From a virus, in IMG/VR virus record IMGVR_UViG_3300027865_000023, positions 1-35,291 of that record: a stretch of DNA of 35,291 bases; one strand, 5' to 3'. This document shows positions 2,976-34,907 of the stretch, one piece after another. How positions within the stretch are numbered: the first letter of the stretch is position 1; each line of letters begins with the position of its first letter. The translations under genes and the position numbers were made by a program. The notes under the pieces were generated by a model. That model had not been told where the DNA came from. It saw only the letters and a program-made list of their open reading frames with translations, and searched no databases.

Positions 2976-3506
2976 TTACAGACGTCTCATAGTGTAAAGC
3001 TCATCATTGTCACGGTGAGTGTATACTTTCTTATCCTTATCATCTCCACCTTTGCTGTGCTGACCAAGTTCTTTCTTCGAAAGCTCTTCCGTCATCAGCT
3101 CGATTTCGGCTTTAAGGAATTTTATTTTTTCATTATCGTTCAATGCTTTTAATGAAGTATCTTTCACTTCCCTGTCCCACTTATCGCCATGCAAAGAAAC
3201 ACCACACTTATGATACTCGGCGGTTTTCCCCTCTATATGGGCTGCACCTATCTGAACCAGTTCTTTGTTTTCATCAGCCTCAGCATTGAGATTGGCAAAA
3301 CTCTTTACGAGTTCCCCATGTTCTTTAGTGAGCTTCTCCATTTCTTCTGTTACTGTCTCATTGTCCTTTGTAAGCTCTTCAATGGTTGTTGAGAATGAGT
3401 CCTTTTCATTTACAACTTCCGCAAGTGCTGTTTCATGTTCTGTTTTCAAAACATATTCTTCAGCCAGTTCTTTTTTAAACTTGGCTTTTACATCTTTAAA
3501 TGTCAT
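2976..3506 (-). CDS. Nested in-frame scaffold protein from an internal start
   Basis: Inside the protease/scaffold gene an ATG at 3506 (Met238) is preceded by a perfect AGGAGG with about 6 nt spacing, stronger than most start sites in this window. Translation from it would give a 176-residue protein, mostly coiled coil, lacking the protease domain. It shares the frame and C-terminus of the long form. This is the arrangement of lambda C and Nu3, where the scaffold is made separately in excess. The ribosome site and the domain boundary are seen directly. Independent expression is inferred. Confidence 0.6.
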   Translation of the reverse strand: MTFKDVKAKFKKELAEEYVLKTEHETALAEVVNEKDSFSTTIEELTKDNETVTEEMEKLTKEHGELVKSFANLNAEADENKELVQIGAAHIEGKTAEYHKCGVSLHGDKWDREVKDTSLKALNDNEKIKFLKAEIELMTEELSKKELGQHSKGGDDKDKKVYTHRDNDELYTMRRL

Positions 3507-4217
3507 GTCTTCCTCCTGTTGTAGACTTTCAAAAAGATTTATTGGCACAGTGAGCTTATGGCTCAATTCGCCAGAAAGTCCAGTTTTTTTAAGTTTTTTC
3601 CAGTTAAGTGTGGCTGTGTCTTTTTTCCTGCCTCTTGACATCTTACCTTTAAATTTAGCACCCGGAAGTGCTCCCTTCCAAACTCCAGAAATTTCACCAG
3701 CAAGATGTGCATTTTCTATGGTGCATGTAGACATCTTACCTTCATATTCAACACCCGGAATGTGAGGACACTCAGGGTCTCTTATATCTAAATCACACAT
3801 GTCACACATGGGGTCTCCATCTTCCCATGATACTGACACATCAGTTAAATGCCCCGCCTCAAAAGCTTTTATAATATCATCAGTAGTCTGTCCACCAGAA
3901 TCTAAGCCCTTAAGCATATAAACTGGAGCTTCAACTACATACCCTTCCAGTACCTTTCCAAGACTTCCACCTAACCACGTCCCCATAGGGATGCCCGCAC
4001 TGTGGTTTATAAGGAACTTCTGGGGGTTCTCCATATCGTTAAGGTCGTTCACAAAGTTATGCAAGCTGGTAGCCCCGAGAAAATAACTATATTGAGTTAT
4101 CATAAAGTCATTAGCTACAGTAGCATCAAGCATGTAAATATCCTCTGCCTGCAATTCCTTCTTCGATAAGTATTTGTTTATGTAATTAAGTTCTGATTCA
4201 TTCGGTTCTCTTACCAT
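2976..4217 (-). CDS. Prohead protease fused to capsid scaffold
   Basis: This 413-residue protein has two parts. Residues from about 50 to 190 look like a phage prohead serine protease (herpesvirus assemblin-like fold). A conserved-type histidine sits in INHSAGIPMGTW (His72), and a serine motif sits in LTDVSVSWEDGD (Ser118/Ser120). The later EISGVWKGALPGAKF matches the strand that usually follows. A small Cys cluster (C128, C131, C140) next to the serine motif is unusual. Residues 238-345 are highly charged and predicted to form a long coiled coil, as in scaffolds. The start ATG at 4217 directly abuts the stop of the glycosyltransferase gene and uses CAGGAGG within that gene's end. A second in-frame start lies at 3506. 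Confidence 0.75.
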   Translation of the reverse strand: MVREPNESELNYINKYLSKKELQAEDIYMLDATVANDFMITQYSYFLGATSLHNFVNDLNDMENPQKFLINHSAGIPMGTWLGGSLGKVLEGYVVEAPVYMLKGLDSGGQTTDDIIKAFEAGHLTDVSVSWEDGDPMCDMCDLDIRDPECPHIPGVEYEGKMSTCTIENAHLAGEISGVWKGALPGAKFKGKMSRGRKKDTATLNWKKLKKTGLSGELSHKLTVPINLFESLQQEEDMTFKDVKAKFKKELAEEYVLKTEHETALAEVVNEKDSFSTTIEELTKDNETVTEEMEKLTKEHGELVKSFANLNAEADENKELVQIGAAHIEGKTAEYHKCGVSLHGDKWDREVKDTSLKALNDNEKIKFLKAEIELMTEELSKKELGQHSKGGDDKDKKVYTHRDNDELYTMRRL

Positions 4218-6269
4218 CTATCCCTCCTGTAATAATTCTACTATTGCTTTTTTTACGTCTTCATATTTGATAGTATCTATACACGGTCTTTGACATCTTG
4301 CGTTACCATGACACGGACTTATGAAAGGACAGTTCCTTATCCAATCTGGAGTAATAACTACACCTTTAGTTTTAGGACTCGCTGTTGCTCTCGGAGATGC
4401 ACAGGAAAAAATTGCAACCTGTGGAGTCCCCAATGCGCTTGCACAGTGGTGGGGAAAACTGTCAACACCTGTGAATAACCTTGCATGGGCAATCACCCAT
4501 GCTGTTTCACGGAATGAAAGTTTACCCTTTAAATCTATGGCATCTTTCACTGCCAAATCACCCTTACTGCCTATCTGGACAATCGGCATCTTTATATCTT
4601 CGAATACTTCATCATAATATCTGTAAATTCTATAAGGATGCCCACCAGTAGTGTGAACTACGATATAGTCCTCTGGCAATTCAATGTCTTTAGGTTTCTC
4701 ACACTGAATACTCACATCTTCGGGCTCTACCCCGCATATAACAGGATAAAGCTCTGCCAGAGATAAATCCCCTGTTCCCCAATTACCATTTTTAATTTTA
4801 TCTATATGGGGTTTGTAAACAAACGGATAAGCCGCTAATAGATTTCCATTCCAAGGAATAAGTTTGTCTATATAGGGATTCCCCCTTAAAATATCCATAT
4901 ACATAGGGTGAGTCATATAGTGAAGCTCAAGCCCCTTATGCTTTTCTTTTAAACCCTTTAAACACTGAGTCGAAAGAAGAATGTCCCCTGCTGTTTCATA
5001 CTGTGCAAAAAGAAACGCCTTACTCGGGTCGACAGCTCGGAAACTTGTAGTTGCCATATCGTCAAGCTCCTTGAAAGCTTCACTCCACATCCTACATATA
5101 ACTTCTTTCTTAAAATTAGCTGCTGCGTATTTCCGTGCTTCTTGGGTTTTTTGTTTGTCTTTAAGATTACTTATCTCCAACAGCTTGCTCGCTATATCGT
5201 CCGTATTAAGCACGTTATATAAACCAGTCGAATCAAAGTCGGCTTTATCTTCAGTGGTCTTTATCTGCCAAGTAAAATCTTTATATTCTTCCGACATAGC
5301 AATGTTTTCGGGCATCAAAACTGGAACACCAGAAAGCATCGCCTCCGTTATAGGTAAACCCCAAGCCTCAGACCATGAAGTATTCAAAAGAACATCAAGT
5401 GATGCTATTAATTTTTTATAATCAGCGAGTGACAATCCTATGCGTGGTTTAAACCCACGTATATGGACAACATTGCCTACTATATCCAGTTCTTCAATAG
5501 CTCTTAAAATTTGCACCCCAACTTCACTGTGAATATATAAAATAGCATCAGGCTTTGACTTTAAAAGTTTTTTGAATCCCACAAGTGCTGACATCATATT
5601 CTTTCTCGGATTTTTGGCAGCACCTACATAGCCGACAATAAATCTATCTTTGAATATGTTGAAATAATCATTCCTGAATTGAATCCTGTCAAATGGATTT
5701 AATTCGCTAAAAACGCTTTCAACCCCATGCGGGATTATTTTTACATCCTTATCAACATGTTTTTGGATTTTGTCTTTACCATATTGATTGGGAGTTATAA
5801 CTATGTCTGCCTGCTGGACAAGCCTTAAATATTCGGGATAAGTCTTACCATCCACAGTGTAATAGCAGATAATCTGGAAATCCTTTCCACCCCGTTTGGC
5901 AAGCTCCTGCTTTAGAAGAGCGATTTTATCCCCGAGCGGACTGGTCAAATACATATCCTGATAAACAAAAAGGATATCATACAGCCCCGTCATTAGTTGC
6001 TCTATCACAACATCAATCCCGCTACATTGTGTATGGTTTCCCTTCAAAATGCTTCTGAATTCGCCGCTTACCTGTTCGATTTCCTTTGGATTAAAAATAG
6101 GCAGAATCCTGTAAGGGAGTTGGTGTCGCTCACCGTGATAATCTTTACCAATAATACTTATATTATATTTGTCAGTTTTGTAAAGGCAGTCTAAAATTAA
6201 ACTTGCCTGTCTACCGAAACCACTTGCTACCGTAGGGCTTGAACACCATGCTAATATCTGTTTTTTCAA
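4218..6269 (-). CDS. Two-domain glycosyltransferase: GT4-like N-terminus and GT9-like C-terminus
   Basis: This 683-residue fusion has two domains. Residues 1-402 form a GT-B glycosyltransferase of the GT4 type, with an SSPTVASGFGR N-terminus, VGYVGAAKNPRKN and the family E-x7-E motif in EAWGLPITE (about 301-309). Residues 417-683 form a GT9 (heptosyltransferase-like) domain with FAQYETAGDILLSTQCLKGLK at its start and TGVDSFPHHCASALGTP near 600-616. It also has a Cys-rich tail (CPFISPCHGNARCQRPC). The start is a TTG at 6269 with GGAGAGG upstream. It sits between portal and protease, inside the head-assembly module, and its stop abuts the protease ATG. That suggests co-expression with virion proteins and perhaps virion glycosylation. 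Domain calls are good, but donor and acceptor are unknown. Confidence 0.85.
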   Translation of the reverse strand: MKKQILAWCSSPTVASGFGRQASLILDCLYKTDKYNISIIGKDYHGERHQLPYRILPIFNPKEIEQVSGEFRSILKGNHTQCSGIDVVIEQLMTGLYDILFVYQDMYLTSPLGDKIALLKQELAKRGGKDFQIICYYTVDGKTYPEYLRLVQQADIVITPNQYGKDKIQKHVDKDVKIIPHGVESVFSELNPFDRIQFRNDYFNIFKDRFIVGYVGAAKNPRKNMMSALVGFKKLLKSKPDAILYIHSEVGVQILRAIEELDIVGNVVHIRGFKPRIGLSLADYKKLIASLDVLLNTSWSEAWGLPITEAMLSGVPVLMPENIAMSEEYKDFTWQIKTTEDKADFDSTGLYNVLNTDDIASKLLEISNLKDKQKTQEARKYAAANFKKEVICRMWSEAFKELDDMATTSFRAVDPSKAFLFAQYETAGDILLSTQCLKGLKEKHKGLELHYMTHPMYMDILRGNPYIDKLIPWNGNLLAAYPFVYKPHIDKIKNGNWGTGDLSLAELYPVICGVEPEDVSIQCEKPKDIELPEDYIVVHTTGGHPYRIYRYYDEVFEDIKMPIVQIGSKGDLAVKDAIDLKGKLSFRETAWVIAHARLFTGVDSFPHHCASALGTPQVAIFSCASPRATASPKTKGVVITPDWIRNCPFISPCHGNARCQRPCIDTIKYEDVKKAIVELLQEG

Positions 6270-6300
6270 AGAACCTCTCCTTTTGTCTTATGACTTTGGT

Positions 6301-6423
6301 TTAATCAATATATTCGCAGATTTCCCTGTTCCAGCATCGCCTGCAATATTTAGGATAATCCAGACACTTGATTTCCCGTTTATTATTTGACGATTTATTT
6401 TTGTCCCGCTTCTTTTTTCCCAC
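6301..6423 (-). CDS. Cys-rich basic microprotein (40 aa)
   Basis: This small gene starts with a GTG at 6423, with GAAGG about 8 nt upstream, and stops 31 nt before the glycosyltransferase start. The first half is very basic. The second half carries four cysteines at positions 20, 27, 30 and 36 (pattern C-x6-C-x2-C-x5-C), suggesting a tiny zinc-binding fold. It overlaps the preceding small gene by 29 nt. There is no known function. The Cys pattern and ribosome site are the only support. Confidence 0.45.
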   Translation of the reverse strand: MGKKKRDKNKSSNNKREIKCLDYPKYCRRCWNREICEYID

Positions 6424-6550
6424 TCAATTTACCTTCAGAAACCTTCTCTATCTTTTGAATAATCTCCACTTTATTGAGAAGTTTTTTAATCCTCTTTATC
6501 CTTTCGGGGTCTTGAAGTCCCTTCCTTGTTTTTTTATTTCCCTCTACCAC
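6395..6550 (-). CDS. Small charged protein overlapping the portal gene end
   Basis: This is an open frame of about 51 residues from a GTG at 6550, rich in Lys and Glu, with a predicted helix (ERIKRIKKLLNKVEIIQKIEKV). It overlaps the portal 3' end by 17 nt in another frame and fills the space before the Cys-rich microprotein. The upstream ribosome site is weak and the true start is uncertain. The frame stays open farther upstream inside the portal gene. Coding is plausible but not proven, and the function is unknown. Confidence 0.35.
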   Translation of the reverse strand: MVEGNKKTRKGLQDPERIKRIKKLLNKVEIIQKIEKVSEGKLSGKKEAGQK

Positions 6551-7994
6551 TTCTTCTATCCCTATTGGTTTCAGAACGCTTATCTTCCTTCTCGTCTTCA
6601 GCCGATGAAGGTCTCTCTGGCTCATTAGGCTTGTTACCCACAATGCGTTCTTCTGCTATATCATCAGGAGCTTTACCTTTCAGCTCGAGCAGTGTCCTTA
6701 TAAGTGTCTGTTTTTCCTCAAGCCCTATTGACTGCTCATTAAAAGCTAATGCAATATTGGAAAGTGTCACCGCTTTCCACTGAGCCATTTCCTCGTCTGT
6801 TCTAAGCTCTGGCTTTTTAAATTTAAAATCTACAGTGGCAATAATACCGTGCTCATATCTTAATATCATTTCGAAAGCTCTCCCATAGAGCTTCTCGACT
6901 ATTTTTTGGAAGCCACCGATTATCTTTATATATAGAACCATTTCAGCGGATGTGAAACCTTCAGAACCACCACCAAATTTTTTACTTAAAAGAACAGAGA
7001 ATGTCTTTAGCCCGTTTGCTATCTGGTTGTCAATAACATCGAGCAAAGGCTTTGGGTTAAACATAGCGCCTTGACCAGTTCTTATTTGTTCCACTTCCAT
7101 TGAATCGGTGTGGACAATATTTGCATCTGGCTCTATATTTTCATAATCAGCCCTTATTTCACTTAAGACATTTGTTACATAATCTCTTTTCTCTATCGGA
7201 CTTCTGACAGAGGGGGGCAGGTTTTTAGAAATCGCTTCCTCGAGTACCTTAAAGCCAAGCCTGTCCCATCCGTTAACATGGATAGCTCGCTGTAAGTCCT
7301 GCATGACCATAGCTTTAAATAAGATGGGCTGGATTGCCGAGGAAATCTGTTCCTCTCCATACGGGTCATCACCCATAGGGTCAACGGGTATATAAATTAC
7401 ATTTGCATAATCAAGGACTACCTGCTTCCCATCCTGATGCTGTTGCGGGACATAACGCCCGTCTTTATTACGGGCAAATGTTAAACTCCAAGGGTCTATA
7501 TAATGCAGAGTGTCCGCAGACATCTTTTCGTCAAAAACTATTTCAGCAGCAACAGCTCCCTTAAACAGGGCGTCAAGGGCAAGTTTAGAAGCAAGGCTGT
7601 TAATGTCTTTAGGTAAAGAAAAACCTTCTTCGCTTGGCTGCCCTAATCTTGAAAGTGTTTTCAAGAGTAGTTCCCTTGCGTTCTTGTTTATTTCGGTATT
7701 CTTTTTCTTTACGACAATACTGTGTCCACTTTCAAAAGTCCTTAGAAATGTGGTAATGGCAGAAGATGTTTCTGGAGAAATAGCCCTGATAACCTTGATA
7801 ATATTCTCATGGGTATAAGACCTTATCTCAGTCAGGTCTTTATTCTGATAATCCCTAAATTTTCTGCCGATTAAAGATATAGGCGCTACAGCAGAGAATG
7901 AATCATCAGCCCGACTTCGCCTGCCTGTCACGACAAGGCTGCCACTCTGGTTCTTTTTTCTGAAACGATTTATAAGTCCTGTAAAGAATCCCAA
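6534..7994 (-). CDS. Portal protein
   Basis: This 486-residue protein forms the dodecameric ring at the capsid vertex through which DNA is packaged. It lies directly after the terminase large subunit, the usual place. The sequence fits the phage portal family: an N-terminal basic segment, ITTFLRTFESGHSIVVKK, LHYIDPWSLTFARNKDGRYVPQ (wing region), VIYIPVDPMGDDPYGEEQISSAIQPILFK (stem entry), and a C-terminal EEKQTLIRTLLELKGKAPDD crown segment. The tail is charged and disordered. The start is a TTG at 7994 behind TTAGGAG with 6 nt spacing. The gap to TerL is 18 nt. Confidence 0.85.
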   Translation of the reverse strand: MGFFTGLINRFRKKNQSGSLVVTGRRSRADDSFSAVAPISLIGRKFRDYQNKDLTEIRSYTHENIIKVIRAISPETSSAITTFLRTFESGHSIVVKKKNTEINKNARELLLKTLSRLGQPSEEGFSLPKDINSLASKLALDALFKGAVAAEIVFDEKMSADTLHYIDPWSLTFARNKDGRYVPQQHQDGKQVVLDYANVIYIPVDPMGDDPYGEEQISSAIQPILFKAMVMQDLQRAIHVNGWDRLGFKVLEEAISKNLPPSVRSPIEKRDYVTNVLSEIRADYENIEPDANIVHTDSMEVEQIRTGQGAMFNPKPLLDVIDNQIANGLKTFSVLLSKKFGGGSEGFTSAEMVLYIKIIGGFQKIVEKLYGRAFEMILRYEHGIIATVDFKFKKPELRTDEEMAQWKAVTLSNIALAFNEQSIGLEEKQTLIRTLLELKGKAPDDIAEERIVGNKPNEPERPSSAEDEKEDKRSETNRDRRSGRGK

Positions 7995-12497: not shown

Positions 12498-12708
12498 ATT
12501 TCTTTTTCAAGGCTTCTTGGTTTTCTTTTATTGAGATGTCAAGACCAGAAAGCCACATTCTCATAAAACTTACGACAACGAACATACCAGCTACTTGCAG
12601 AAAGGTAATTGTTATCGGAAAAACATAATTTAAGATTGCCTGCATCATCCAAATAATTATAACGAGAACTATTATGGAAAATATTGTCGGCATGGGTTTA
12701 GTCTTCAT
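12481..12708 (-). CDS. Small membrane protein with two transmembrane segments
   Basis: This protein has 75 residues. Two hydrophobic stretches (about 8-27, IFSIIVLVIIIWMMQAIL; and about 31-53, ITITFLQVAGMFVVVSFM) are separated by a short loop and followed by a charged tail of about 20 residues. It starts by ATGA overlap with the TSCPD gene. In a phage this size and topology can mean a holin-like, superinfection or membrane-docking role. No lysis enzyme is visible nearby, so I leave the function open. Confidence 0.6.
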   Translation of the reverse strand: MKTKPMPTIFSIIVLVIIIWMMQAILNYVFPITITFLQVAGMFVVVSFMRMWLSGLDISIKENQEALKKKYVSED

Positions 12709-13073
12709 TTCTTTTCTCCTTCAGGTGGCTCTCCGAGCCCCTGTCCTTCTAACACCCTTGCGATACCATCAGCACAAGAGAGGGCATGTTTTGTTGTGTC
12801 TTTTTGCCAATCTATTGCCTGCCCACACATAGTCCCTTTCATTATCTTTATGATTTTTCTTAAGGTATCTTCTCCCTTAGAACTATCCTGTATAGCTATC
12901 GAGATAACTTCAGCCCATGCTTCCATCTGCACCCTGATACAGCTCCCGTTCCTGCCCGCTGTGGCTTTCAGACCTGTTATCGTATCTGGCTTAAGGGCGT
13001 TCCCCTTATGCGTTATAGTTAGATTTAATTTGCCACATCCTATCTTTTTTTCTACTGTGATACTTTTTGACAT
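12705..13073 (-). CDS. Stand-alone TSCPD-domain protein
   Basis: This 122-residue protein resembles the TSCPD domain found at the C-terminus of adenosylcobalamin-dependent class II ribonucleotide reductases. The similarity runs through LTITHKGNALKPDTITG, then GRNGSCIRVQMEAWAEVISIAIQ, TLRKIIKIMKGTMCGQ and the terminal SCADGIARVLE, which corresponds to the SCPDAIARAL-like signature. Cysteines at C49, C88 and C104 or nearby may bind metal. No reductase catalytic domain is present in the window. Such single-domain versions occur in phages and bacteria without a known role. Neighbours overlap on both sides. Confidence 0.7.
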   Translation of the reverse strand: MSKSITVEKKIGCGKLNLTITHKGNALKPDTITGLKATAGRNGSCIRVQMEAWAEVISIAIQDSSKGEDTLRKIIKIMKGTMCGQAIDWQKDTTKHALSCADGIARVLEGQGLGEPPEGEKK

Positions 13074-13240
13074 TTAATCTCCCGTTCCTTAGCCAAATAA
13101 CCCGCTAAAAATATTTCCTCATAATGCCCGTCATGCAATTTATATACTGAGTGTTTACCAAATACAAACCAGTTCTTTTTCTTATATACCCGGAAAGCCT
13201 TCTGGCAGCCCTTGGGCATCCTGTCGAAATATAGTCCCAT
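13052..13240 (-). CDS. Hypothetical protein (62 aa)
   Basis: This basic protein of 62 residues is rich in aromatic residues (NWFVFGKHSVYKLHDGHYEEIFLAGYLA) with two cysteines. The family is unknown. Its start (TAATG) overlaps the exonuclease stop, and its end overlaps the TSCPD gene start by 22 nt, so it is translated as part of that chain if at all. Confidence 0.5.
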   Translation of the reverse strand: MGLYFDRMPKGCQKAFRVYKKKNWFVFGKHSVYKLHDGHYEEIFLAGYLAKEREIKCQKVSQ

Positions 13241-14757
13241 TATTTGACTTCCGTATGAGTACCATCTTTATATGCTCTCCTTTCATCACACCATGAACCA
13301 CAATCTTTACACTGATACCTTTGATACTTACGAACCCTTGTGTAAGCAAACCCGTTTTTTCTCAGGTTAGGACTACCACATACAGGGTTTGGGCAACACA
13401 GCCCATCCCTAAATAGCCCTGCATTAAGAGGATTGTTCTTAACATAGGGCATCAGTTTCTCGAACACAAAATACAGAGCGTCTATATCTCCCCTGTTATA
13501 AACAGCCATCCTCTTGAGTGCCTTTTCGTCTCCTTCCCAACACTTGAGCCATAAATCAGAGGGGTTTGTTATCTTCCCTTTATGCCCTAAATACTTAGCT
13601 ATGAAATTAAGTTTGTTAGAGGCAAAATTAAAATGCTTACTCGCAATCTTCTTTGTGTCTAAGCTGATGATTTTAGGCAGTGGTGGCAAGTCGTGTGCAA
13701 TCATTCTTGAGGTAAGGACTGGTAAATCAAATTTAGAATTGTGAGAGGGGAAACCCTCCATTATATATGTTTGGGTTGATGTGCTTAATTCCACAATGTC
13801 TTGCATACCTAAAATCTGTACCTTCTTAATTGTTTCCCACTTCTTTGTTTGCATAGCCCCAATATCAGCGATATCAAGTTTGGGCATTAACCTCTCGGGT
13901 CTTATTGTCCCCAAAAATCTCAACTCTTCATCTTTCCCCCCTCTTAAATAAATTCTATGCACACTTTTGTCTGTCATCTTACTGGGATTAAATCCCCTGA
14001 GTTTAAGTTGTTGTAATGTCATTTTTAGTGCCTCGTTATTTTTCTGTGCCATACCAACCCGGATGGTTTTACCATGTAATGTGTTTTTTATACTCAAATG
14101 CCCTTCACCATCAAAAAAAACAGCTAAATAACCAGCGCCAAAAGAACTGTCTGTACTCCACACATCAAGAACCCTCGATACTTTATCACCCGCTTGCAAT
14201 TCCCCTGCCTGTTTCCACTTCAAATTATTATGAACCTTTTTATTGGATGACATAAGCAGCGGATGCCCAGCCGAACATGTTATAACCCTATCGTGAAAAA
14301 ATATTCTTACTACTGGTTGTTTGGATTCACCTACATGGGTAACAATACTGTTTTCATATTTCCTGCGATACCCTGAACCAACAACATTGGCGTTAAAACC
14401 AGCCAATTTATCACCCACCTTTAGCGAACCTGCGTTAACCCACCTTAAGCCACTTGTTAATATCTTCTGGTCTGGGGTCGGACAACCATAGTGAGCCACA
14501 TGAGCGTCAGCCCCGCTTAAAATCTTGTGCATTTCTTTCACCACATGGTAATCATCATGGTTGTTTCTTTTAAACCTCTTATAGTCATCTAAGATACTTG
14601 TTGTGTGTGTTTTGCTCTCACCATACCAACGATATGAAGCACAATAAATATGTCTATGTGTTATTACATTTTCAGCAGGTATGTTCTGCTTATACAAACC
14701 AAACGATAAAACCAAGTTATGACTTGTCTCCAAGTCCCATAATAATATTTTTGGCAA
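13240..14757 (-). CDS. DEDDy exonuclease (RNase H-like, YprB type) interrupted by an intein
   Basis: The start is a TTG at 14757 behind a perfect AAGGAG. A longer GTG frame from 14814 would overlap the upstream gene and lacks that site. The primary product has 505 residues. The spliced exonuclease (about 256 aa) has Exo I in LLWDLETS, Exo II rebuilt across the splice junction (VAHYG joined to SKFDLPVL), and Exo III YNRGD. This makes a 3'-5' exonuclease of the DnaQ/YprB RNase H-like family, likely in phage DNA repair or replication. A C-terminal zinc ribbon follows (C-x4-C ... YQCKDCGSWC), resembling ribbons of transposases. An intein lies at residues 92-340. The exonuclease should be inactive until splicing. 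Confidence 0.88.
   Translation of the reverse strand: MPKILLWDLETSHNLVLSFGLYKQNIPAENVITHRHIYCASYRWYGESKTHTTSILDDYKRFKRNNHDDYHVVKEMHKILSGADAHVAHYGCPTPDQKILTSGLRWVNAGSLKVGDKLAGFNANVVGSGYRRKYENSIVTHVGESKQPVVRIFFHDRVITCSAGHPLLMSSNKKVHNNLKWKQAGELQAGDKVSRVLDVWSTDSSFGAGYLAVFFDGEGHLSIKNTLHGKTIRVGMAQKNNEALKMTLQQLKLRGFNPSKMTDKSVHRIYLRGGKDEELRFLGTIRPERLMPKLDIADIGAMQTKKWETIKKVQILGMQDIVELSTSTQTYIMEGFPSHNSKFDLPVLTSRMIAHDLPPLPKIISLDTKKIASKHFNFASNKLNFIAKYLGHKGKITNPSDLWLKCWEGDEKALKRMAVYNRGDIDALYFVFEKLMPYVKNNPLNAGLFRDGLCCPNPVCGSPNLRKNGFAYTRVRKYQRYQCKDCGSWCDERRAYKDGTHTEVK
13738..14484 (-). other. Intein with a LAGLIDADG-type homing endonuclease domain (249 aa)
   Basis: This in-frame insertion begins with Cys and ends with His-Asn, followed by Ser as the +1 extein residue. 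That is the chemistry of a class 1 intein. Block A is CPTPDQKILTSGLRWVNAG with LKVGDKL. Block B is RVITCSAGHPLLM. Blocks F and G are IVELSTSTQTYIMEGFPSHN. A LAGLIDADG-like motif, YLAVFFDGEGHLSI, lies in the middle, and a second, weaker one may be present. The remaining exonuclease joins cleanly when the insertion is removed. The size fits a bifunctional intein of near-minimal length. Confidence 0.9.
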
Positions 14758-14767
14758 TATGTTCTCC

Positions 14768-15061
14768 TTATCCAGCCCCTTTTTTTTCCTTCTGTTTTTG
14801 TTTCCACAGTTCACGCTTCTGTTTATTCAAAATCTTTGCCAGCTCTGGTCTTGCCCACGTGATTGCTCGATTCTCTATATCTATAACCTGTTCCACAGGA
14901 CACATCCTCACAATAGGTTTCTCGCCAGTCCTGACCGCCATAAGGTGAGAATCTTTAGGTTCTATTTTTATCCTGTGATGCTTTCTATATTCAGCTATTT
15001 CTTCTTTCGTGCCGTATTTATAATCTCCGCAAAGTTTGCAGTAAAAACTGTAATGACTCAT
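14768..15061 (-). CDS. Hypothetical protein with an N-terminal Cys pair (97 aa)
   Basis: This 97-residue protein begins with FYCKLCGDYKYGTKEE, a C-x2-C knuckle, then HH at 28-29 that could complete a zinc site (C2H2-like). The last 30 residues form a very basic helix (ILNKQKRELWKQKQKEKK). The family is unknown, and nucleic-acid binding is plausible from the charge. The ATG at 15061 has AAGG upstream. Its 3' end supplies the AAGGAG site of the exonuclease gene. Confidence 0.55.
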   Translation of the reverse strand: MSHYSFYCKLCGDYKYGTKEEIAEYRKHHRIKIEPKDSHLMAVRTGEKPIVRMCPVEQVIDIENRAITWARPELAKILNKQKRELWKQKQKEKKGAG

Positions 15062-18153: not shown

Positions 18154-18357
18154 TTTTTACCTGCCCTAAACGGATATTGTCACCTAAATTTCTAAAAGCT
18201 TCATGGGCATACGGGTATCTCATAGCAAACTCCGCCTGCTCTGCTTCTGTTGATATATTTTTAATCCTGCTTTCATCAAAAACGTGACGTGCTTCTTCGT
18301 TCCATATCAAACCTAACCTTGCTACCACTTCTTTTATCCTGTAAGGTTCTTTATATG
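18140..18357 (-). pseudogene. C-terminal remnant of a second sulfotransferase gene
   Basis: The frame encodes SYKEPYRIKEVVARLGLIW ... FDESRIKNISTEAEQAEFA, which matches the C-terminal 70 or so residues of the intact sulfotransferase at 19095-19868 (there SYKEPYRIKEVVAKLGLTW ... FDESRIKNISTEAEKEEFA). No start or catalytic P-loop part is present. The frame opens just after a TAG, and the only possible start is a GTG at 18328. The matching DNA begins inside the last codons of the ParB-like gene, which reads it in another frame. This is best seen as the leftover of a duplicated or recombined gene. Translation from the GTG as a short protein of 62 aa cannot be excluded. Confidence 0.75.
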
Positions 18358-18358
18358 A
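18167..18358. repeat. Diverged direct repeat, copy B (partner at 19117-19295)
   Basis: This segment aligns with 19117-19295 in the same orientation. A 37-bp block at its right end (18322-18358 against 19259-19295) differs by one base. The rest is clearly similar but diverged (I judge around three quarters identical by eye). The sharp end of similarity at 18358 marks a recombination junction, and the ParB-like coding frame crosses that junction. Confidence 0.8.
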
Positions 18359-19095
18359 TCCTCCGTTCTAAATGGATACTGTTTATCTTGTGGACAGGTA
18401 AGCGCTATAGCTTCTGACACCACATAGACGGGGATAAGCTTTTTCTTCATTGCCTCATATGCCATATACCTTTTATATCCGTCCCGCCTTTGGAAGAAAA
18501 TATCGCTATCCTTTTTTGTCACCAGTATCGGCTCTATCTGGTATCCCTGTTCTATTTTACTTTTCATCCACTCAACACCCGCCTGATGCTCTTTATAGTC
18601 GGCTTCTAAATGTTCTTGTGAATACCCCTCTAAACCCAACCAGCCCTCTTTTGTGGGGAAGTGGATATGGTCGTAAGGATTAACACTTGCCAGTGGGAGC
18701 ATTGTCTCTCTAAGTTTAACAGACAATGAGTCTTTAAACATACAAGCCATTTTAATAAATTCTGACATCTTTAACTCTAAACGTATATCCCCATAATGAA
18801 AATGGATACTACCATTCTCCTGCTCTTCTATTTTCCACTGTTGCTTGAAGATTGTATCTTCGGTAATTTTAGTAAGACACAAAACTGTATCTTCCTCTGC
18901 CAATCTTCCACTCCATCCAGTCCCCGCCTTGACCACAGCTCCCCCAAAATTCACAAACTGTTTCGGGGTCATTAAGATTCTACAGTCTCTCCAATGTAGG
19001 TGGATAGCTTCAGAAACCTCTATCCTTAAATCATCACGGAAATGAGGTTGCTCTTTGGTATTAACTGATGCGAGTATTTCTTTAACGTCTCCCAC
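18334..19095 (-). CDS. ParB/Srx-like domain protein
   Basis: This protein has 253 residues from a GTG at 19095 with GGAGAGGAGG just upstream. The GTG shares its first base with the sulfotransferase stop. The C-terminal part carries a ParB-like pattern: YQIEPILVTKKDSDIFFQRRDGYKRYMAYEAMKKKLIPVYVV, with DGYKRYMAY standing for the family's DGxxRxxA box. The N-terminal 150 residues have repeated beta-type elements (IEVSEAIHLHWRDCRILMTPKQF and a similar GSIHFHYGDIRLELKMSEF, seen as two related halves) of unknown family. ParB-like domains can act as CTP- or ATP-using switches or kinase-like enzymes. Its last nine residues are encoded by duplicated sulfotransferase DNA read out of frame. Confidence 0.7.
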   Translation of the reverse strand: MGDVKEILASVNTKEQPHFRDDLRIEVSEAIHLHWRDCRILMTPKQFVNFGGAVVKAGTGWSGRLAEEDTVLCLTKITEDTIFKQQWKIEEQENGSIHFHYGDIRLELKMSEFIKMACMFKDSLSVKLRETMLPLASVNPYDHIHFPTKEGWLGLEGYSQEHLEADYKEHQAGVEWMKSKIEQGYQIEPILVTKKDSDIFFQRRDGYKRYMAYEAMKKKLIPVYVVSEAIALTCPQDKQYPFRTEDHIKNLTG

Positions 19096-19868
19096 TATAC
19101 CTCCTCTCCGCACAAAGCCCTTAAGTTTCCAAAAGTGGAGTGGGCTTCGGGATATGTTGTGGCAAATTCTTCCTTCTCCGCTTCTGTCGATATATTTTTT
19201 ATCCTACTTTCGTCAAAAATCCGTTCCGCTTCCCCAGTCCATGTCAAGCCCAACTTAGCTACCACTTCCTTTATCCTGTAAGGTTCTTTATATGAATCGG
19301 GAAACATAATCACCTGTGCTCCCCTTTCACTTAATAGATATTTAGTTGTATGAAAACTTTCTTTGTAATATTTTAATATTCTTTCTATATTCCAAGTAGG
19401 GTCATTAGAAGTGCTTTTCATAATATCAATCGGATGTCTTAACGAAGTAATAATTTTTACATCTGGAAAATTTTCCAGCAAGAGCAGTCCTAAATATTTC
19501 CAGACAGAATCATGTACCAAATGAACATTTTTGAAACCAAAGAAATGCCACCCATGTTTTGTAGCTTCTTCATTGTAAGATTTTAAAAATCTATCAAAAT
19601 TTTCAACATGATTCTTTCTGTATTGTGAATGATGATAATCTTTATTATAATATGGGTTTCCAAATTCTTGCGCTAAGTGCATTTCATTTGTAATTGTGCA
19701 TAAACCCCAATTTTCCCTAATCTCTCCAGCGGGGCAAGTGTAACCACAAGAGTTATTCCCCAACTCCATACCACAAGCATGTAAAATTCTCAAGAGAAGC
19801 CTTGAGCCTGTATGCCAGTGACTTAGAATCGCTATAGGTGTTTGTTTTGGCAGGGATAAATTATCCAT
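19095..19868 (-). CDS. Sulfotransferase-like protein
   Basis: This 257-residue protein resembles PAPS-dependent sulfotransferases. The 5'-phosphosulfate loop candidate is SHWHTGSRLLLRIL (16-29), where the usual GTxRSGTT-like loop is changed but keeps the Gly-Ser pair. The 3'-phosphate site candidate is IITSLRHPIDIMKS, the typical 'xRxPxd' segment. Later, VIMFPDSYKEPYRIKEVVAKLGL and a terminal FDESRIKN match the usual C-terminal region. It would move sulfate from PAPS to a sugar or other hydroxyl. Its 14 neighbours include fucose and glycosyl transfer genes, so a glycan acceptor is likely. The ATG at 19868 overlaps the methyltransferase end by 8 nt. Confidence 0.78.
   Translation of the reverse strand: MDNLSLPKQTPIAILSHWHTGSRLLLRILHACGMELGNNSCGYTCPAGEIRENWGLCTITNEMHLAQEFGNPYYNKDYHHSQYRKNHVENFDRFLKSYNEEATKHGWHFFGFKNVHLVHDSVWKYLGLLLLENFPDVKIITSLRHPIDIMKSTSNDPTWNIERILKYYKESFHTTKYLLSERGAQVIMFPDSYKEPYRIKEVVAKLGLTWTGEAERIFDESRIKNISTEAEKEEFATTYPEAHSTFGNLRALCGEEV
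19117..19295. repeat. Diverged direct repeat, copy A (within the intact sulfotransferase)
   Basis: This is the intact partner of the segment at 18167-18358. It covers the codons for the C-terminal third of the sulfotransferase. The 37-bp block 19259-19295 is the best-conserved part. Confidence 0.8.
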
Positions 19869-20454
19869 CTACAATCTCCTTTTGAGCAATTATTAAAAAA
19901 CCATTGCTACGTTCCCATTGCGATTTATCAGCAACTTCAATTCTGAAATCCGACCTTTCCTCTAAAGCGTCTCTTACTTGAAGCAAAGTAAATCCAGTAG
20001 TTTTCATTCCATTTGCTTTATAATTCCCACTATCATAATCCAAGTATGGTGTGTTAAAAATAATCAACCCCTCAGAATTAAGGTGATTGCAGAGGAAACC
20101 AACAAAACCATCCAGCTCTTCATATAAAACATGATGTAAAACATACCAAAAATGGATTATGTCGTATTTCTCAGGGAAAATATCAGAGTAACTATTAATT
20201 AAATGTCTATTTTTTATTTTTTTATGCACCAACGCATTTAGGGCTCTTGCTGATATATCGGCAAGGGCATACTCCTTCACAATATCTATAACCGCCCTCA
20301 TTTGTCTTCCTTCTCCAGCGCCAATTTCTAAAACTTTTTTATCCCTAAAGATTTCAATATGCTTTTCAAAGGGGACTTTTACACTGTCTCCTTGTTTATA
20401 TTCTATATATCTCGTATCCCAATAACTGCTTCTCTCGTTTAAATCTTTTAACAT
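19861..20454 (-). CDS. Class I SAM-dependent methyltransferase
   Basis: This protein has 197 residues. Motif I is VLEIGAGEG (41-49), the acidic residue after strand 2 is in YALADIS, motif IV is [13 protein letters not shown], and [17 protein letters not shown] follows. This is a compact Methyltransf_11/25-like enzyme, without a target-recognition domain or DNA-MTase motif. It sits between GDP-fucose synthase and the sulfotransferase with short overlaps to both, which suggests methylation of the same sugar or glycan. The substrate is not proven. The start ATG at 20454 uses AGGGAG inside the fucose-synthase end. Confidence 0.8.
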
Positions 20455-21404
20455 TTTTGCTCCCTTCGCATACTTTTATACCACCTGACTGTTTTTTCTA
20501 ATCCTTCCCTAAGCTCTGTTTTTGCATTAAAACCAAACTCTTCCTGAGCTCTTGAAACATCAAGACATCTTCGTGGCTGACCGTCAGGCTTTGACAAATC
20601 CCATGTTACATCCCCATAAAATCCTGTAAGTTTAGCAATAAATCCCGCAAGGTCTTTTATAGACACCTCAAATCCAGACCCTATATTGACTGGCTCACCT
20701 TTATTGTATTTTTCAGTTGCAAGCACTATCCCTTCAGCAGCATCTTCTACATACAAAAATTCCCTTGTTGGTTTCCCTGTCCCCCAAATAGTTACTTTTG
20801 GATGAAACGGGTTCTCTTGAATGGCATTAATAAACTTTTTAATTAAAGCTGGGATTACATGGGAAGTGTCAGGGTCGAAATTATCTCCTATGCCATATAA
20901 ATTAACAGGCAAAAGATATATCGAGTTAAAATTGTGTTGCTTTCTATATGCCTGAGACTGAACAAGAAGCATTTTCTTTGCAAGCCCGTATGGAGCATTT
21001 GTTTCTTCTGGATAGCCATCCCATATATCCTTCTCTTTAAAGGGTATCGGGCAAAACTTAGGGTATGCGCATATCGTCCCGATAGCAACAAACTTTTCTA
21101 CGCCAAAATGATAGGCTAAATCCATTGTCTGTATCCCCATAACAAGGTTATCGTAGAAGAAACTGGCAGGGTATTCGCTGTTAGCTTTTATTCCACCGAC
21201 AACCGCCGCAAGATGAATAACAATATCGGGCAGAAATTCATAAAACATTTGCCCACATTCTTCTTTGTCGGTGAGGTCATACTTCTCACTGCTCGGGGCT
21301 ACGATGTTTTTACATCCACGCTCTTTGAGCTTTTTAACCACATAAGAACCCAAAAAACCGTTTCCGCCAGTTACTAAAACTGTTTTATTGTCCCAAAATT
21401 CCAT
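20448..21404 (-). CDS. fcl: GDP-L-fucose synthase
   Basis: This 318-residue protein belongs to the short-chain dehydrogenase superfamily and is close to bacterial Fcl/WcaG. NADPH is bound by TGGNGFLGS. The catalytic Ser is in [15 protein letters not shown]-type segments and the Tyr-x3-Lys pair is in APYGLAKKM. The family segment [23 protein letters not shown] (quoted in parts) and [13 protein letters not shown] are strongly diagnostic. It converts GDP-4-keto-6-deoxymannose to GDP-L-fucose by epimerisation and reduction. It directly follows the dehydratase gene (1-bp gap), giving the full two-step route from GDP-mannose. Length is normal and catalytic residues appear intact. Confidence 0.93.
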
Positions 21405-21405
21405 A

Positions 21406-22461
21406 TTACACCTTAAGTTTGTCGCAGTCGCTTTCGACCATTATCTCGCATAAGGCACGAAAAGTTACCTTCGGAGACCAATTAAGCCCTATCCTTGCTT
21501 TTGTAATATCAGCCTGAAGAACATCAACCTCAATAGGTCTAAAATATCTTGGGTCTATTTCTATAATAGTGTCCCCCTCTTTTACTGGACACTTATCCCG
21601 AGATACAAATTCAATAACTCCTTTTTCTTTTAAACCACTATTCCGCCACTCTATGCCGATACCGACATAATGAAACGCATATTCTACAAATTCCCTCACA
21701 GAATGGCTTTGTCCTGTGCCAATCACATAATCTTCAGGTTTATCCTGCTGTAACATCGTCCACATACATTCCACATACTCGGGGGCATATCCCCAATCTC
21801 TTTTAGCGTCCAGATTCCCGAGGAAAAGCCTTTGCTCTTTACCTGCAAGAATATTTGCCAGAGCCCGTGTAATCTTTCTTGTCACAAAGGTTTCCCCTCT
21901 CCTTGGAGATTCGTGGTTAAAAAGAATACCGTTACAGGCAAACATGTTATACCCATTCCGATAATTGACAGTCGTCCAGAAAGCATATGTCTTAGCAACA
22001 GCATAGGGGCTTCGGGGTGAAAAGGGCGTATCTTCGCTCTGCGGTGGTTGGGCAGAACCGAACATCTCTGACGAAGATGCCTGATAAAATTTTGTTTTTA
22101 TCCCACTTCTCCTGATGGCTTCAAGAAGCCTTGTTGTGCCAAGCGCTGTTATATCGCCAGTATATTCTGGAATATCGAAGCTAACCCTTACATGGCTCTG
22201 AGCACCAAGATGATAAACTTCGTCTGGTTCAATGTTGTAAATTATGTTGGTTAACTGTCCTGCGTCGGCAAGGTCTCCATAATGAAGAAATAATTTTGCA
22301 TCAGGGGCATGAGAGTCTACATATATATGGTTAATCCTACTGGTATTAAAAGTGCTCGCCCTTCTTATAAGACCATGAACAGCATAGCCCTTGGACAGAA
22401 GCAGTTCTGCTAAATAAGAACCGTCCTGTCCAGTAATACCAGTTATAAGTGCTTTTTTCAT
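21406..22461 (-). CDS. gmd: GDP-mannose 4,6-dehydratase
   Basis: This protein has 351 residues from the ATG at 22461 (MKKALITG). A longer in-frame start inside the previous gene is less likely. The NAD(P) motif is [15 protein letters not shown], followed by [11 protein letters not shown]. The catalytic region is [10 protein letters not shown] with Tyr-x3-Lys in [10 protein letters not shown], then [16 protein letters not shown], all hallmarks of Gmd. It makes GDP-4-keto-6-deoxymannose, the substrate of the next gene product. Length and motifs are complete, so activity is expected. It follows the glycosyltransferase-like gene with 1-bp spacing and weak Shine-Dalgarno sequence, suggesting coupled translation. 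Confidence 0.95.
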
Positions 22462-22462
22462 C

Positions 22463-23698
22463 TTATCTATTGTCCCGTACCTTATCAAGAATATGATTTA
22501 TTAAAAAAACAGACAATTTATGCTGGTTGCCCTTTATCCATTTTCCATAAAGCTCAAAGCAGTTAGAGGATATATATTCATATTGCTCTTTTGTTATGTT
22601 AGTGGCATCTTTTAAATCAGAGAAATCTTCACTAAATGTAAGATAGTGTTCCCCATCTTTCATTTCAGGGAAGAACGACTGGTCGTTAATCCTTCTTGGG
22701 TAAAGGTTTATTGTCTTCATAGCGGCAGCTTCCCAGAAACGGGGCGGTGCAAGAATAGAGAAAGCCCATTTATAGTCACAATAAAATAAATATTGTTTGA
22801 GTATATTGTAGAGATTCGCATCAGCAAGTGGGCTTGAATTTAGAGCCCCCTCAAGTAAGCCTAAATTGATATCCCCATGATGTTTTTTAAAAATCTCTGC
22901 TGCTTCGTAGAAAAACGGGACACACTGGTTATTCCAGTGAGCCTTACCAGTTGTCTGTCCATTGAAATAGTCATCTGGTATAGGACTTGGTATTCTACAA
23001 GATGTTTTGCTCCCCCTATAGTGAGCAAGAGACATACCCCCATGTTCTTTCCATATCTTTCTACAGTCATCACAATACTGATGGACATAGTGCGTGGTAA
23101 AAAAACAGGAAAATTCATCAACCAAATGATGCTTTAAAAAATGCAGATACATTATAAATCTCTGATAGTGATGCCCGCCACGCACAAGGCATAGCTTCTT
23201 TCTACCTTCCCATGTTAAAGAGGGCACTATGTCGGGGTCTCGCCACATTACGTAGGGCAAAGAATGTAATCGCCCACTATTTTTAATAGTAGAATATGTC
23301 TGCCAGTGTTCATCTGAACAGAAAGGTCGTAGTCTCTTGGTAATGTGCATATTATTATCAATATACATTTCGTCAGAACTTTGAACCTCTTGGATGCCTG
23401 CCACTTTAAAGATTAAATCTATATCTAATATTTCCTTGGACTGTCCATACATGCTGTCAAAAGATGAATGGTCGTTAATATCAAAAGAGCATATAGTGTT
23501 ACCATTGTTTTTAAGCTGTGATATTGTCACTGGAGTCAAGCGTATGCCATCAACCAAAACAATGGAATTCTTAACAGCCCGCAAGTCCGCAGCAATTTCA
23601 ATCGGCGTTGTAGTCCCTTGCGAGTAATTAAGCAATGACATAAAATAAACCTGTTCCAGATAAATATTGACTGGCTTGAACATTACTATTTTTTTCAT
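22463..23698 (-). CDS. Glycosyltransferase-like protein, GT-B type (CgeB/Glyco_trans_1-like)
   Basis: This protein has 411 residues. The C-terminal part has [17 protein letters not shown], then [19 protein letters not shown], the pattern of nucleotide-sugar-binding domains in CgeB-like and spore-coat glycosyltransferases (E of RFWEAAA, then EHYLTFSED). The N-terminal half is poorly conserved, with a CDDC motif ([11 protein letters not shown]) that is unusual. The donor could well be GDP-fucose from the two following genes, since the three genes overlap or nearly abut. The family call is moderate and donor and acceptor are inferred from context only. Confidence 0.65.
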
Positions 23699-24477: not shown

Positions 24478-24723
24478 CTATGGTATAGATTGTTTGCTAT
24501 TGATAGCTTTTAATAAACATTTAATACTGCAAAAATCTGTTATATCATTCTGCCATCCGACTGAGTGCATGTAACTTTCAGCCATTCCCTTTTTCTTGAA
24601 ACGTGGCTCATTAAGCCATACCCGTAATTGTCCACTTAATTGCAACCAATTTTCTTTTCTTTGTTGTCTTTCTTTTATTGCTTGTTTTTTACAAATATTA
24701 CATAAAGTTATTTCTTTTTTCAT
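24478..24723 (-). CDS. Small Cys-rich protein (81 aa)
   Basis: This protein has 81 residues from an ATG at 24723 that overlaps the glycosyltransferase stop (ATGA). The CNICKK pair near the N-terminus and the FCSIKC pair near residue 66 flank a basic helical middle. Four cysteines in two C-x2/3-C pairs suggest a split zinc site, like treble-clef or HNH-type structural sites, but without nuclease residues I can identify. The function is unknown. Confidence 0.5.
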   Translation of the reverse strand: MKKEITLCNICKKQAIKERQQRKENWLQLSGQLRVWLNEPRFKKKGMAESYMHSVGWQNDITDFCSIKCLLKAINSKQSIP

Positions 24724-25508
24724 TCGCTTTCCACCTTCCAATATTTTAAATACTCTTCACTCTCTTCTGATGCTTTCATACTCTTTTTCTTTTTATACCA
24801 CTCCTGCCAATGCGGGGATGACATGGCATGTCCGACTTTAGCCTCGTTAATATATGTATCCTTAAACTGTTGGTCTACTTGCCAAAGCTCTTCACACATA
24901 CCCGCAATGGATTTTAATCTTGCTTCGGTCTTAAGAAAACCAAAATGCCTGATGACTGGACTGCCCATATGAAGAAGCGGATTCTGGAAACCGCTTGGTC
25001 TCTCATGCACCATGCGCTCAAACCCCACATTCGGCAAGTTCCTAAAAAACCTCGGTTGCCAGTCGGGATGACTTCCAAGATTAGCTATCTGCTCTTCAGC
25101 GGACGGTTTAGTGAGTAACCCCCCGTCACGGGTCTCGACTATAGACATATCAAATGCTCTATAATGCTGTCTCGGAAGCCAGATTAAATCATGGTTTGAT
25201 TCACACATCATCCCAAATTTCTTGACATCCGCTGGCAGTATCCGCTCGTCACCGTCAAGAATCAAAACCCATTTGCTTCTGGCTAAATGAGCTGTCAGGG
25301 TACGCATTCCACCATATCCGCCTACAAACATGGGATGTGTTATCTGATAAACCCTTGCCCCCAAAGACCTGCAAATTTCTATAGTACTATCCGTGCTCCC
25401 ACTATCAACAACTACCCACTCGTTAATAACGCTTTTAACACAGTTGTAAACTGCTTCTGCGTTTTTTTCTTCGTCTTTAAAATTACAGCATAGTGTTATG
25501 GTTGACAT
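24720..25508 (-). CDS. Family 2 glycosyltransferase (GT-A)
   Basis: This protein has 262 residues. It is a GT-A enzyme: N-terminal LCCNFKDEEKNAEAVYNC, then EWVVVDSGSTDSTIEICRSLGARVY, and the metal-binding LILDGDERI (DGDE as the DxD motif), all as in the WaaE/KdtX-type branch of GT2. The late RFFRNLPNVGFERMVHERP is also typical of that branch. It would add a sugar to a glycan chain. It heads the glycan part of the island (in transcription order), ahead of the methyltransferases and fucose genes. The start is the ATG at 25508, next to the preceding stop. Confidence 0.87.
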   Translation of the reverse strand: MSTITLCCNFKDEEKNAEAVYNCVKSVINEWVVVDSGSTDSTIEICRSLGARVYQITHPMFVGGYGGMRTLTAHLARSKWVLILDGDERILPADVKKFGMMCESNHDLIWLPRQHYRAFDMSIVETRDGGLLTKPSAEEQIANLGSHPDWQPRFFRNLPNVGFERMVHERPSGFQNPLLHMGSPVIRHFGFLKTEARLKSIAGMCEELWQVDQQFKDTYINEAKVGHAMSSPHWQEWYKKKKSMKASEESEEYLKYWKVESE

Positions 25509-33974: not shown

Positions 33975-34019
33975 AGCTGAAATTACTATAAATCATTATA
34001 ATAACAATGTCAAGCAAAA
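33975..34019 (-). repeat. 45-bp perfect direct repeat, copy 1 (promoter cassette)
   Basis: This 45-bp block is identical base for base to 34960-35004, about 985 bp away. The right half of the plus strand reads ...ACAATGTCAAGCAAAA. The block contains a complete leftward promoter and ends near its expected start point. Copy 1 overlaps the last bases of the HTH gene (stop at 34010) and drives the gene at 33899 and those beyond. Confidence 0.95.
33985..34013 (-). promoter_or_regulatory. Sigma-70-type leftward promoter (copy 1)
   Basis: Read leftward: -35 TTGACA (34008-34013), 17-bp spacer, -10 TATAGT (33985-33990), so 6/6 and 5/6 matches to consensus with ideal spacing. TTTTGC precedes the -35 box and TTGT follows it. 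The start point should lie near 33977-33979. It serves the small-gene operon from 33899 leftward. Confidence 0.85.
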
Positions 34020-34162
34020 TGTTCCATAATATCGCTTAAGAAAAACCTTCTTGGTCGGCAGAACGCTTTCATAGCTCCTGCGTGTTTATTGACCCACCAC
34101 TTTGAATAACCCCTATCAAGGAAATATTTATCTGTAACAATTTTTTCCTCGTCAAATATCAT
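34010..34162 (-). CDS. AlpA/excisionase-like helix-turn-helix protein (50 aa)
   Basis: This protein has 50 residues from an ATG at 34162 that overlaps the preceding stop (ATGA). The segment IVTDKYFLDRGYSKWWVNKH ... CRPRRFFLSDIMEHF follows the pattern of MerR-like HTH_17/excisionase domains, where R-x-R-F-F-L-S-D-I matches the common 'rrwrf.reDie.w' wing and helix. Proteins of this type act as excisionase or transcription factor. No integrase is in the window. The upstream start (34195) is possible but less likely. Confidence 0.6.
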   Translation of the reverse strand: MIFDEEKIVTDKYFLDRGYSKWWVNKHAGAMKAFCRPRRFFLSDIMEHFA

Positions 34163-34260
34163 AAAAACAGTATCCCTAATATAATTATTGCCCAAAGAAC
34201 AAACCCTACTATTAAACCGTAAACCATCCCCCGAGCAGGAGCTAATTTATCTTCCTTCAT
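34159..34260 (-). CDS. Very small membrane protein (33 aa)
   Basis: An ATG at 34260 opens 33 codons: a short polar start (MKEDKLAPARG) and a single hydrophobic helix (VYGLIVGFVLWAIIILGILFL). It overlaps the CII-like gene by 14 nt and the HTH gene by ATGA. It resembles small phage membrane peptides in shape only. Confidence 0.5.
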   Translation of the reverse strand: MKEDKLAPARGMVYGLIVGFVLWAIIILGILFL

Positions 34261-34651
34261 CCTGTCCCCCATTACCAAGTAACAGCTTTATGGTTTCCCT
34301 AAGTATCTCGATACGCTTTTCCTTTTCCTGAGTCCCGAAACCCAACAAAATCCGCATGGATTCTATAAGCGTGTTTAAATCTGGTTCAAGTCTTAGCTCC
34401 TTCAAGTTCAGCGATAGCCTGAAAGCACCCTTGAGAATCTCGACAACCCTGACCGTCTCACCAGTTGGATAGATTTGACAGCCCGAGTAAGCAAGCATCA
34501 TATGTATCTCTTTTTCAGCCCACCCCGTGTGACCATTTATCCGCTTAGATAACTCCGATGCGTTTAACCCTAAAACGGACGCCAGCACCTCCTGACTGCC
34601 TGCTTTATAAATTGCCCTTTGGACTAATTCAAATAAATTCATACCCTTCAT
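34247..34651 (-). CDS. CII-like transcriptional regulator
   Basis: This protein has 134 residues from an ATG at 34651 with AAGGGGG in front (an ATG three codons on is also possible). The N-terminal 60 residues hold an HTH: FELVQRAIYKAG SQEVLASVLGLNASELSKRINGHTGWAEKEIHMMLAY, similar in layout to phage CII proteins (HTH of 'tEktAeavGvdkSqiSRw' style). A leucine-rich helical C-terminal part (LKELRLEPDLNTLIESMRILLGF) may tetramerise it. It is the first gene after the control region and promoters whose -35 boxes are flanked in a CII-site-like way. An alternative reading is a general phage repressor or activator HTH. Confidence 0.55.
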   Translation of the reverse strand: MKGMNLFELVQRAIYKAGSQEVLASVLGLNASELSKRINGHTGWAEKEIHMMLAYSGCQIYPTGETVRVVEILKGAFRLSLNLKELRLEPDLNTLIESMRILLGFGTQEKEKRIEILRETIKLLLGNGGQDEGR

Positions 34652-34871
34652 GCCCTACCCCCTTGTTTGTTTTATTTGCCTCCAGCCAGTAAAAGAAATT
34701 TACAGAAATTTAATTTTCTTCCACTTTCTCCCTAAAAATGGTAAAAAAATATACATACCCCCGCTACATCCCCCACTGATGATTGGGGCGATAAAGGGTT
34801 TTAGGGAACATAACGAGGGTAAGACAAAAATTCGGTTCAGACTTATAGTTTTAGTATATTTCATTTTGCTA
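34652..34871. other. Leader between the control promoters and the CII-like gene
   Basis: These 220 bp lie between the nearest promoter and the first start codon. Read leftward they contain a small hairpin, CCCCA-loop-TGGGG, around 34775-34795 and a T-rich stretch some 20 nt later (34742-34752), spaced too far apart to be a clear terminator. A 54-codon frame (34700-34864) lacks a ribosome site. It may be an attenuator or simply a long leader. Confidence 0.3.
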
Positions 34872-34878
34872 TAATTTT

Positions 34879-34907
34879 ATGTTAACACACCTAAATATCA
34901 ATGTCAA
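34879..34907 (-). promoter_or_regulatory. Leftward promoter (related third copy)
   Basis: Read leftward: -35 TTGACA (34902-34907), 17-bp spacer, -10 TAACAT (34879-34884; 4/6). The block TTTTTGCTTGACATTG around the -35 box is identical to that of the 45-bp repeat at 34960-35004, but spacer and -10 differ. It is the promoter closest to the CII-like gene. Confidence 0.65.

Follow-up and report, generated by a model that had tools for sequence, protein, structure and literature searches.

In a viral sequence from the IMG/VR collection (record IMGVR_UViG_3300027865_000023; its 35,291 bases, possibly a fragment of a larger genome, are called the window here), the gene for a predicted DEDDy 3'-5' exonuclease is interrupted within its Exo II motif. 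Sequence comparison and structure prediction support reading the interrupting segment as an intein of class 1 that contains a LAGLIDADG domain and is presumably removed by protein splicing. Related inteins recur at the same Exo II point in other genes of uncultured phages, both in small exonucleases and in family-A DNA polymerases. The features of the gene are collected in Table 1.

Table 1. Features of the intein-interrupted exonuclease gene (window coordinates)
Feature	Position	Strand	Basis or remark
Shine-Dalgarno sequence AAGGAG	14764..14769	-	six bases ahead of TTG
Precursor gene, intein-interrupted exonuclease	13240..14757	-	505 aa from TTG start
N-extein, ends ...VAHYG	14485..14757	-	aligns with intein-free homologues
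Exo I motif D-L-E	14728..14736	-	D and E invariant in homologues
Exo II first half VAHYG, Tyr for usual Asn	14485..14499	-	homologue comparison
Intein CPTPDQ...GFPSHN, 249 aa, Cys1, His248-Asn249	13738..14484	-	sequence, relatives, predicted fold
Intein block B VITCSAGHPLLM (Ser71, invariant His74)	14251..14286	-	alignment of inteins
Single LAGLIDADG endonuclease unit	13861..14148	-	predicted helix-strand-strand-helix-strand-strand-helix
LAGLIDADG motif GYLAVFFDGEG, candidate catalytic Glu127	14101..14133	-	72 of 73 inteins have Glu, one has Asp
C-extein and stop codon	13240..13737	-	sequence
Exo II second half S(+1)-K-F-D with catalytic Asp	13726..13737	-	homologues; profile match
Exo III Y-N-R-G-D (DEDDy type)	13486..13500	-	all 84 homologues have this Y and D
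C-terminal zinc ribbon	13297..13386	-	common to intein-free homologues

The interrupted gene and its exonuclease

A sequence-only reading of the window had placed a 249-residue insert exactly between VAHYG and SKFDLPVL, and our analysis returned the same ends, with Ser as the next residue. Once the insert is removed, the remaining 256 residues match PHROG 403, the phage DNA polymerase exonuclease subunit, with E=5.5e-63, and the score against PF13482, 23.3 bits for the precursor, becomes 37.7 (cut-off 22). The spliced protein is matched by 1,515 INPHARED records, 1,507 of which cover at least 80% of it in one place, continuously, and the best 80 loci in IMG/VR also match it without the insert, at up to 44% identity. 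These are the intein-free homologues across the insertion site that the earlier reading had proposed to look for. An AlphaFold2 model of the precursor is of moderate quality (pLDDT 80, pTM 0.60), with the intein well folded and the exonuclease halves less so.

The four acids of the active site (Exo I DxE, Asp of Exo II, Exo III YxxxD), like the Tyr, do not vary among the 83 or 84 homologues that cover them; together with the PHROG 403 and PF13482 profiles, these motifs support the extein as a predicted DEDDy 3'-5' exonuclease. A profile built from four members gave a weak PDB match (E=0.039) to DNA polymerase delta, which puts the insertion site at the Exo II region of that polymerase (GYNTTNFDIPYL). 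The split of Exo II in a DEDDy exonuclease is thus borne out, the catalytic Asp lying beyond the insert and the motifs agreeing with those of homologues; in one detail the motif departs from the usual form, with Tyr in place of the Exo II Asn. Because Tyr also occupies this position in 8 of 84 intein-free homologues, it is a subgroup feature, and we rejected the idea that it is an adaptation to the intein. At the +1 position, where an intein requires Cys, Ser or Thr, 58 of the 84 intein-free homologues have Asp and four have Ser.

The zinc ribbon at the C-terminus (NCBIfam IS1/IS1595 Zn domain, E=4.6e-6, slightly below the cut-off) had been described as transposase-like. It is present, but intein-free homologues carry it as well, so it is a family trait that is not special to the intein-bearing gene, and a link to transposases was rejected.

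As for the start of the gene, an upstream GTG at 14814 would give a longer product (13240-14814, 524 aa). The TTG chosen in the earlier reading is the more likely start, because AAGGAG lies six bases upstream of it. On the minus strand of the window, AAGGAG followed by TTG four to nine bases on occurs 8 times against 3.1 expected, always on the coding strand, and several window genes may use TTG starts.

Other features of the window are noted here as observations in their own right. A gene for a TSCPD-domain protein (12705-13073, minus strand) lies just downstream of the exonuclease gene; this domain is usually tied to ribonucleotide reductase. Two adjoining nucleotide-sugar epimerase genes (20448-22488, minus strand), with a sulfotransferase-like gene (19095-19868) and glycosyltransferase genes (4218-6269 and 24720-25508) near them, possibly form a sugar-modification module. 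A direct repeat of 174 bases, 76% identical and 937 bases apart, occupies 18185-18358 and 19122-19295. At 33975-35269, close to where the record ends, AT-rich repeats around CAATGTCAAGCAAAAAGT, some direct and some inverted, are possibly control sites.

The insert as a class 1 intein

The sequence-only reading had made the identification depend on Pfam Hint and LAGLIDADG profiles, a test that misfires here: the matches were PT-HINT at E=0.088 and LAGLIDADG_3 at E=0.13, both sub-threshold. Across Pfam and NCBIfam, profiles gave sub-threshold or partial matches only, and when the intein sequence was searched against the PDB, only chance matches came back. What decides the question is the relatives of the insert and its predicted fold.

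In a translated search, the intein was matched from end to end in 137 phage records, all of them Mycobacterium or Gordonia phages, the best at about 34% identity and E about 1e-29; the exteins listed for these matches are terminase-like and portal proteins. A scan of IMG/VR returned 152 relatives, and among the best 80 of these, which were taken forward, the exteins were varied (terminases, HD-domain-like proteins and polymerases, most of them judged by flanking residues). In one locus, L169, a terminase-like ORF has an apparent second, different intein near the P-loop in its N-terminal part, ending ...THN/SKISAAV, where the slash marks the junction.

In an alignment of 73 inteins, no row departs from Cys1 or His74, and position 71 is always Ser or Thr; every sequence that extends to the C-terminus has both His248 and Asn249. 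AlphaFold2 predicted a Hint domain with a LAGLIDADG unit (pLDDT 96, pTM 0.91); two alignments with misplaced half-extein rows (A6 and A7) were excluded from the input to structure prediction. When the predicted structure was compared with the PDB by Foldseek, the top matches were PI-PfuI, archaeal VMA inteins and DnaB mini-inteins, with I-CreI further down, and the 45 matches at E <= 0.001 were inteins or related Hint domains (Hedgehog, BIL). Homology to inteins, the key residues and the predicted fold together identify the insert as a class 1-type intein in which an endonuclease unit is nested. The class 1 assignment made earlier from Cys1, the terminal His-Asn and the +1 Ser agrees with termini, relatives and predicted fold alike.

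The same evidence bears on two other explanations of the insert. An ordinary extra domain, retained in the mature nuclease, would also keep the frame open, and nothing more speaks for it; we consider it very improbable, because homologues do without the insert, its predicted Hint fold comes with intact terminal splicing residues, and its relatives sit in unrelated proteins. Removal of the insert as RNA seems more improbable still: some group I introns likewise hold an in-frame homing-endonuclease domain, but here the frame is open across both junctions and a Hint fold with splicing residues is predicted.

A single LAGLIDADG unit

The LAGLIDADG-type motif seen in the earlier reading is there, and only one was found. 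The predicted endonuclease unit resembles one half of I-CreI in the AlphaFold2 model. By a simple motif scan, a second D-G-E-G-like string occurs in 1 of 73 inteins, at a position close to the N-terminus and not within the endonuclease. The loci that we numbered L090-L198 make up a large subfamily of phage inteins of about 250-280 aa with one LAGLIDADG motif, in many unrelated host genes. LAGLIDADG enzymes with one motif are homodimers that act on partly palindromic sites (PMC3943268); across 74 empty sites, made by joining the flanks by script, no palindromic symmetry appeared at a consistent offset.

This lack of symmetry and the single unit would both fit a true intein whose endonuclease is dead or merely structural, inherited with its gene and no longer homing. 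So would the loss of the endonuclease from one intein at the Exo II site (L170, described below) and the G+C content of the intein, which at 40.0% equals that of the window (39.8%) and hence gives no sign of recent arrival. We nevertheless regard this explanation as doubtful, for 72 of the 73 inteins retain the candidate catalytic Glu, set in a near-invariant motif, as selection for activity would give, and the scattering of carriers among relatives that mostly lack an intein is what mobility would produce. A homing endonuclease that probably still cuts is our preferred reading. No pair was found in which the same gene occurs with and without the intein at close identity.

Recurrence at the Exo II point

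Related inteins occupy the same Exo II point in nine non-redundant IMG/VR genes besides that of the window, a count that is a lower bound set by short search patterns. The cases were gathered by reading the flanks of relatives, by a junction pattern search and by a junction alignment search, and redundant copies were merged (L185=L172, L182=L174, L177=L175, L178=L094=L173, and L181 with its near copy L180). Seven are small exonucleases of the RNase_H_2 type (L149, L170, L185, L182, L177, L179 and L181), and two are family-A DNA polymerases (L178 and L176). The assignment rests on Pfam matches to RNase_H_2 (PF13482) for the four small proteins tested and to DNA_pol_A (PF00476) for both polymerases, whose exonuclease motifs were recognised by eye, DxE preceding the insertion point and YxxxD following it. 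The contig of L149 ends within the intein, L179 has two extra residues ahead of the Asp, and the L170 intein, of 178 aa, has kept its ends with the endonuclease deleted. In a further gene, L147, whose spliced protein matches PHROG 403 with E=8.5e-9, the intein is shifted one residue on. In L176, one ORF (3131-6931) combines a uracil-DNA glycosylase domain with the family-A DNA polymerase, the intein lying in the exonuclease domain.

Since the nine further genes encode two kinds of enzyme and share one insertion point, we regard Exo II as a recurrent landing site. The exonuclease had been called an uncommon home for an intein; this stands for sequenced phages, as no insert-bearing exonuclease was seen among the 1,515 matching INPHARED records, but not for uncultured phages, where the site recurs. 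Other searches were less productive. A scan of viral contigs with the unaligned precursor gave no match; the junction pattern AH[NY]G/C..P[DE] gave two chance matches only, and no second case with the exact N-terminal junction; and a scan of genome contigs, by junction alignment and strict patterns, brought up two relatives, both in genes other than exonucleases.

A tree built from 75 inteins places nine Exo II inteins (those of the window, L149, L176, L177, L178, L179, L181, L182 and L185) on one side of a branch with moderate support (SH-aLRT 86, unstarred), and the L147 intein falls outside this group. Within it, the window intein joins the two polymerase inteins (support 80), so that its nearest relatives by tree are same-point inteins in a different enzyme. 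When two long-branch rows and L170 were added, the Exo II label required four changes on the tree, against a shuffled mean of 10.6. The clustering of the Exo II inteins would be compatible with a single origin. One could go further and imagine an intein lineage specialised on the Exo II coding sequence, moving between non-orthologous genes (phage exonucleases and the proofreading domains of polymerases) and, by interrupting the active site, letting the speed of splicing set the level of the phage proofreading nuclease; this we offer as speculation, and we think it quite unlikely as a whole.

Two intein-free relatives of the exonuclease gene, in phages XAJ24 (2528-2917 in L002) and KZY1 (2514-3002 in L003), have directly upstream a free-standing gene annotated as endonuclease VII or homing endonuclease. 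The exonuclease gene may thus attract more than one kind of homing element.

Proposed mechanism

What we observed is the homology to inteins, the fold predicted for the insert, its key residues and its place of insertion, together with homologues that lack it and the recurrence of the site; the account that follows, which extends these observations to splicing, DNA cutting, precursor silence and homing, is the explanation that we hold with high confidence overall. The gene would be translated as a single precursor of 505 aa. Its Hint domain most likely runs class 1 splicing, by an acyl shift at Cys1, transfer to Ser+1 and cyclisation of Asn249, the last probably assisted by His74 and His248. 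Joining VAHYG to SKFDLP would then yield the DEDDy 3'-5' exonuclease of 256 aa. In the unspliced protein, the Exo II Asp would be separated from the rest of the active-site strand, and for this reason the precursor is probably inactive; judging by where the intein sits, it is reasonable to infer that nuclease activity requires splicing. Intein-free copies of the Exo II coding sequence are probably cut by the nested LAGLIDADG domain, after which repair would copy the intein in. Homing of this kind would account for the related inteins at the same point of exonucleases and polymerase proofreading domains.

It is tempting to see in an insertion within an active-site motif a conditional switch of nuclease activity, with splicing governed, for example, by redox through Cys1 or by binding of DNA or a partner. 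Splicing is known to be conditional in other inteins, those of RadA (PMC5790916) and mycobacterial DnaB (PMC6195587). However, no regulatory feature was seen in the window intein, and inteins usually, indeed by default, insert at conserved functional sites (PMC2814812, PMC5050341), so we give such a switch little credence. If the precursor proves silent, the gene would be a naturally occurring case of a nuclease turned from off to on by splicing.

Significance and comparison with known systems

The intein itself is an otherwise ordinary mobile element of a known kind, and it is its Exo II site that appears to be unreported in the open-access literature searched. There, we found no report of an intein in a DEDD/DnaQ exonuclease or at Exo II, which is weak evidence. 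With the cases described here, DEDD exonucleases would join the list of intein homes, and Exo II would be a recurrent insertion point common to different enzyme families. With a shared site, one can test whether a single lineage of endonuclease is able to track a motif through genes that are not orthologous. Moreover, some seventy phage inteins share this conserved endonuclease with one motif, which makes it of interest how an enzyme of half the usual size, housed in an intein, would cut DNA.

Among known proteins, the PHROG 403 exonucleases of Xanthomonas phage XAJ24 and Bacteroides phage DAC15 share 34-37% identity with the window exonuclease, with the same DEDDy motifs and zinc ribbon, and, unlike the window gene, they are without an intein. 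The family-A DNA polymerase of Klebsiella phage ZCKP1, which surfaced in the fold search, likewise has an intein in a replication protein with an exonuclease domain. We considered it as a prior Exo II case and rejected it: its intein interrupts ...SHY/CWRY in the polymerase domain, whereas its Exo II motif (AHNGINYD) is intact.

Well-studied intein endonucleases have two LAGLIDADG helices, blocks C and E (PMC8966425, PMC5050341). PI-SceI, PI-PfuI and the VMA inteins combine a Hint domain with a nested LAGLIDADG endonuclease (PMC8966425), as the window intein is predicted to do, but their endonucleases have two motifs, in contrast to the one of the window's intein family. The portal-protein intein of Gordonia phages (for example Neoevie) belongs to the same intein subfamily, at 29% identity over the full length, and differs from that of the window in extein and site. 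Closest is the intein of the terminase-like Pham3880 of cluster C1 mycobacteriophages, a group that Kelley et al. 2016 described as inteins (PMC5050341) and with which we equated the QBert gene by phage cluster and annotation. It matches from end to end at about 34% identity and shares Cys1, His-Asn, the +1 Ser and a single LAGLIDADG motif; its host gene encodes a packaging-related protein, whereas that of the window encodes an exonuclease.
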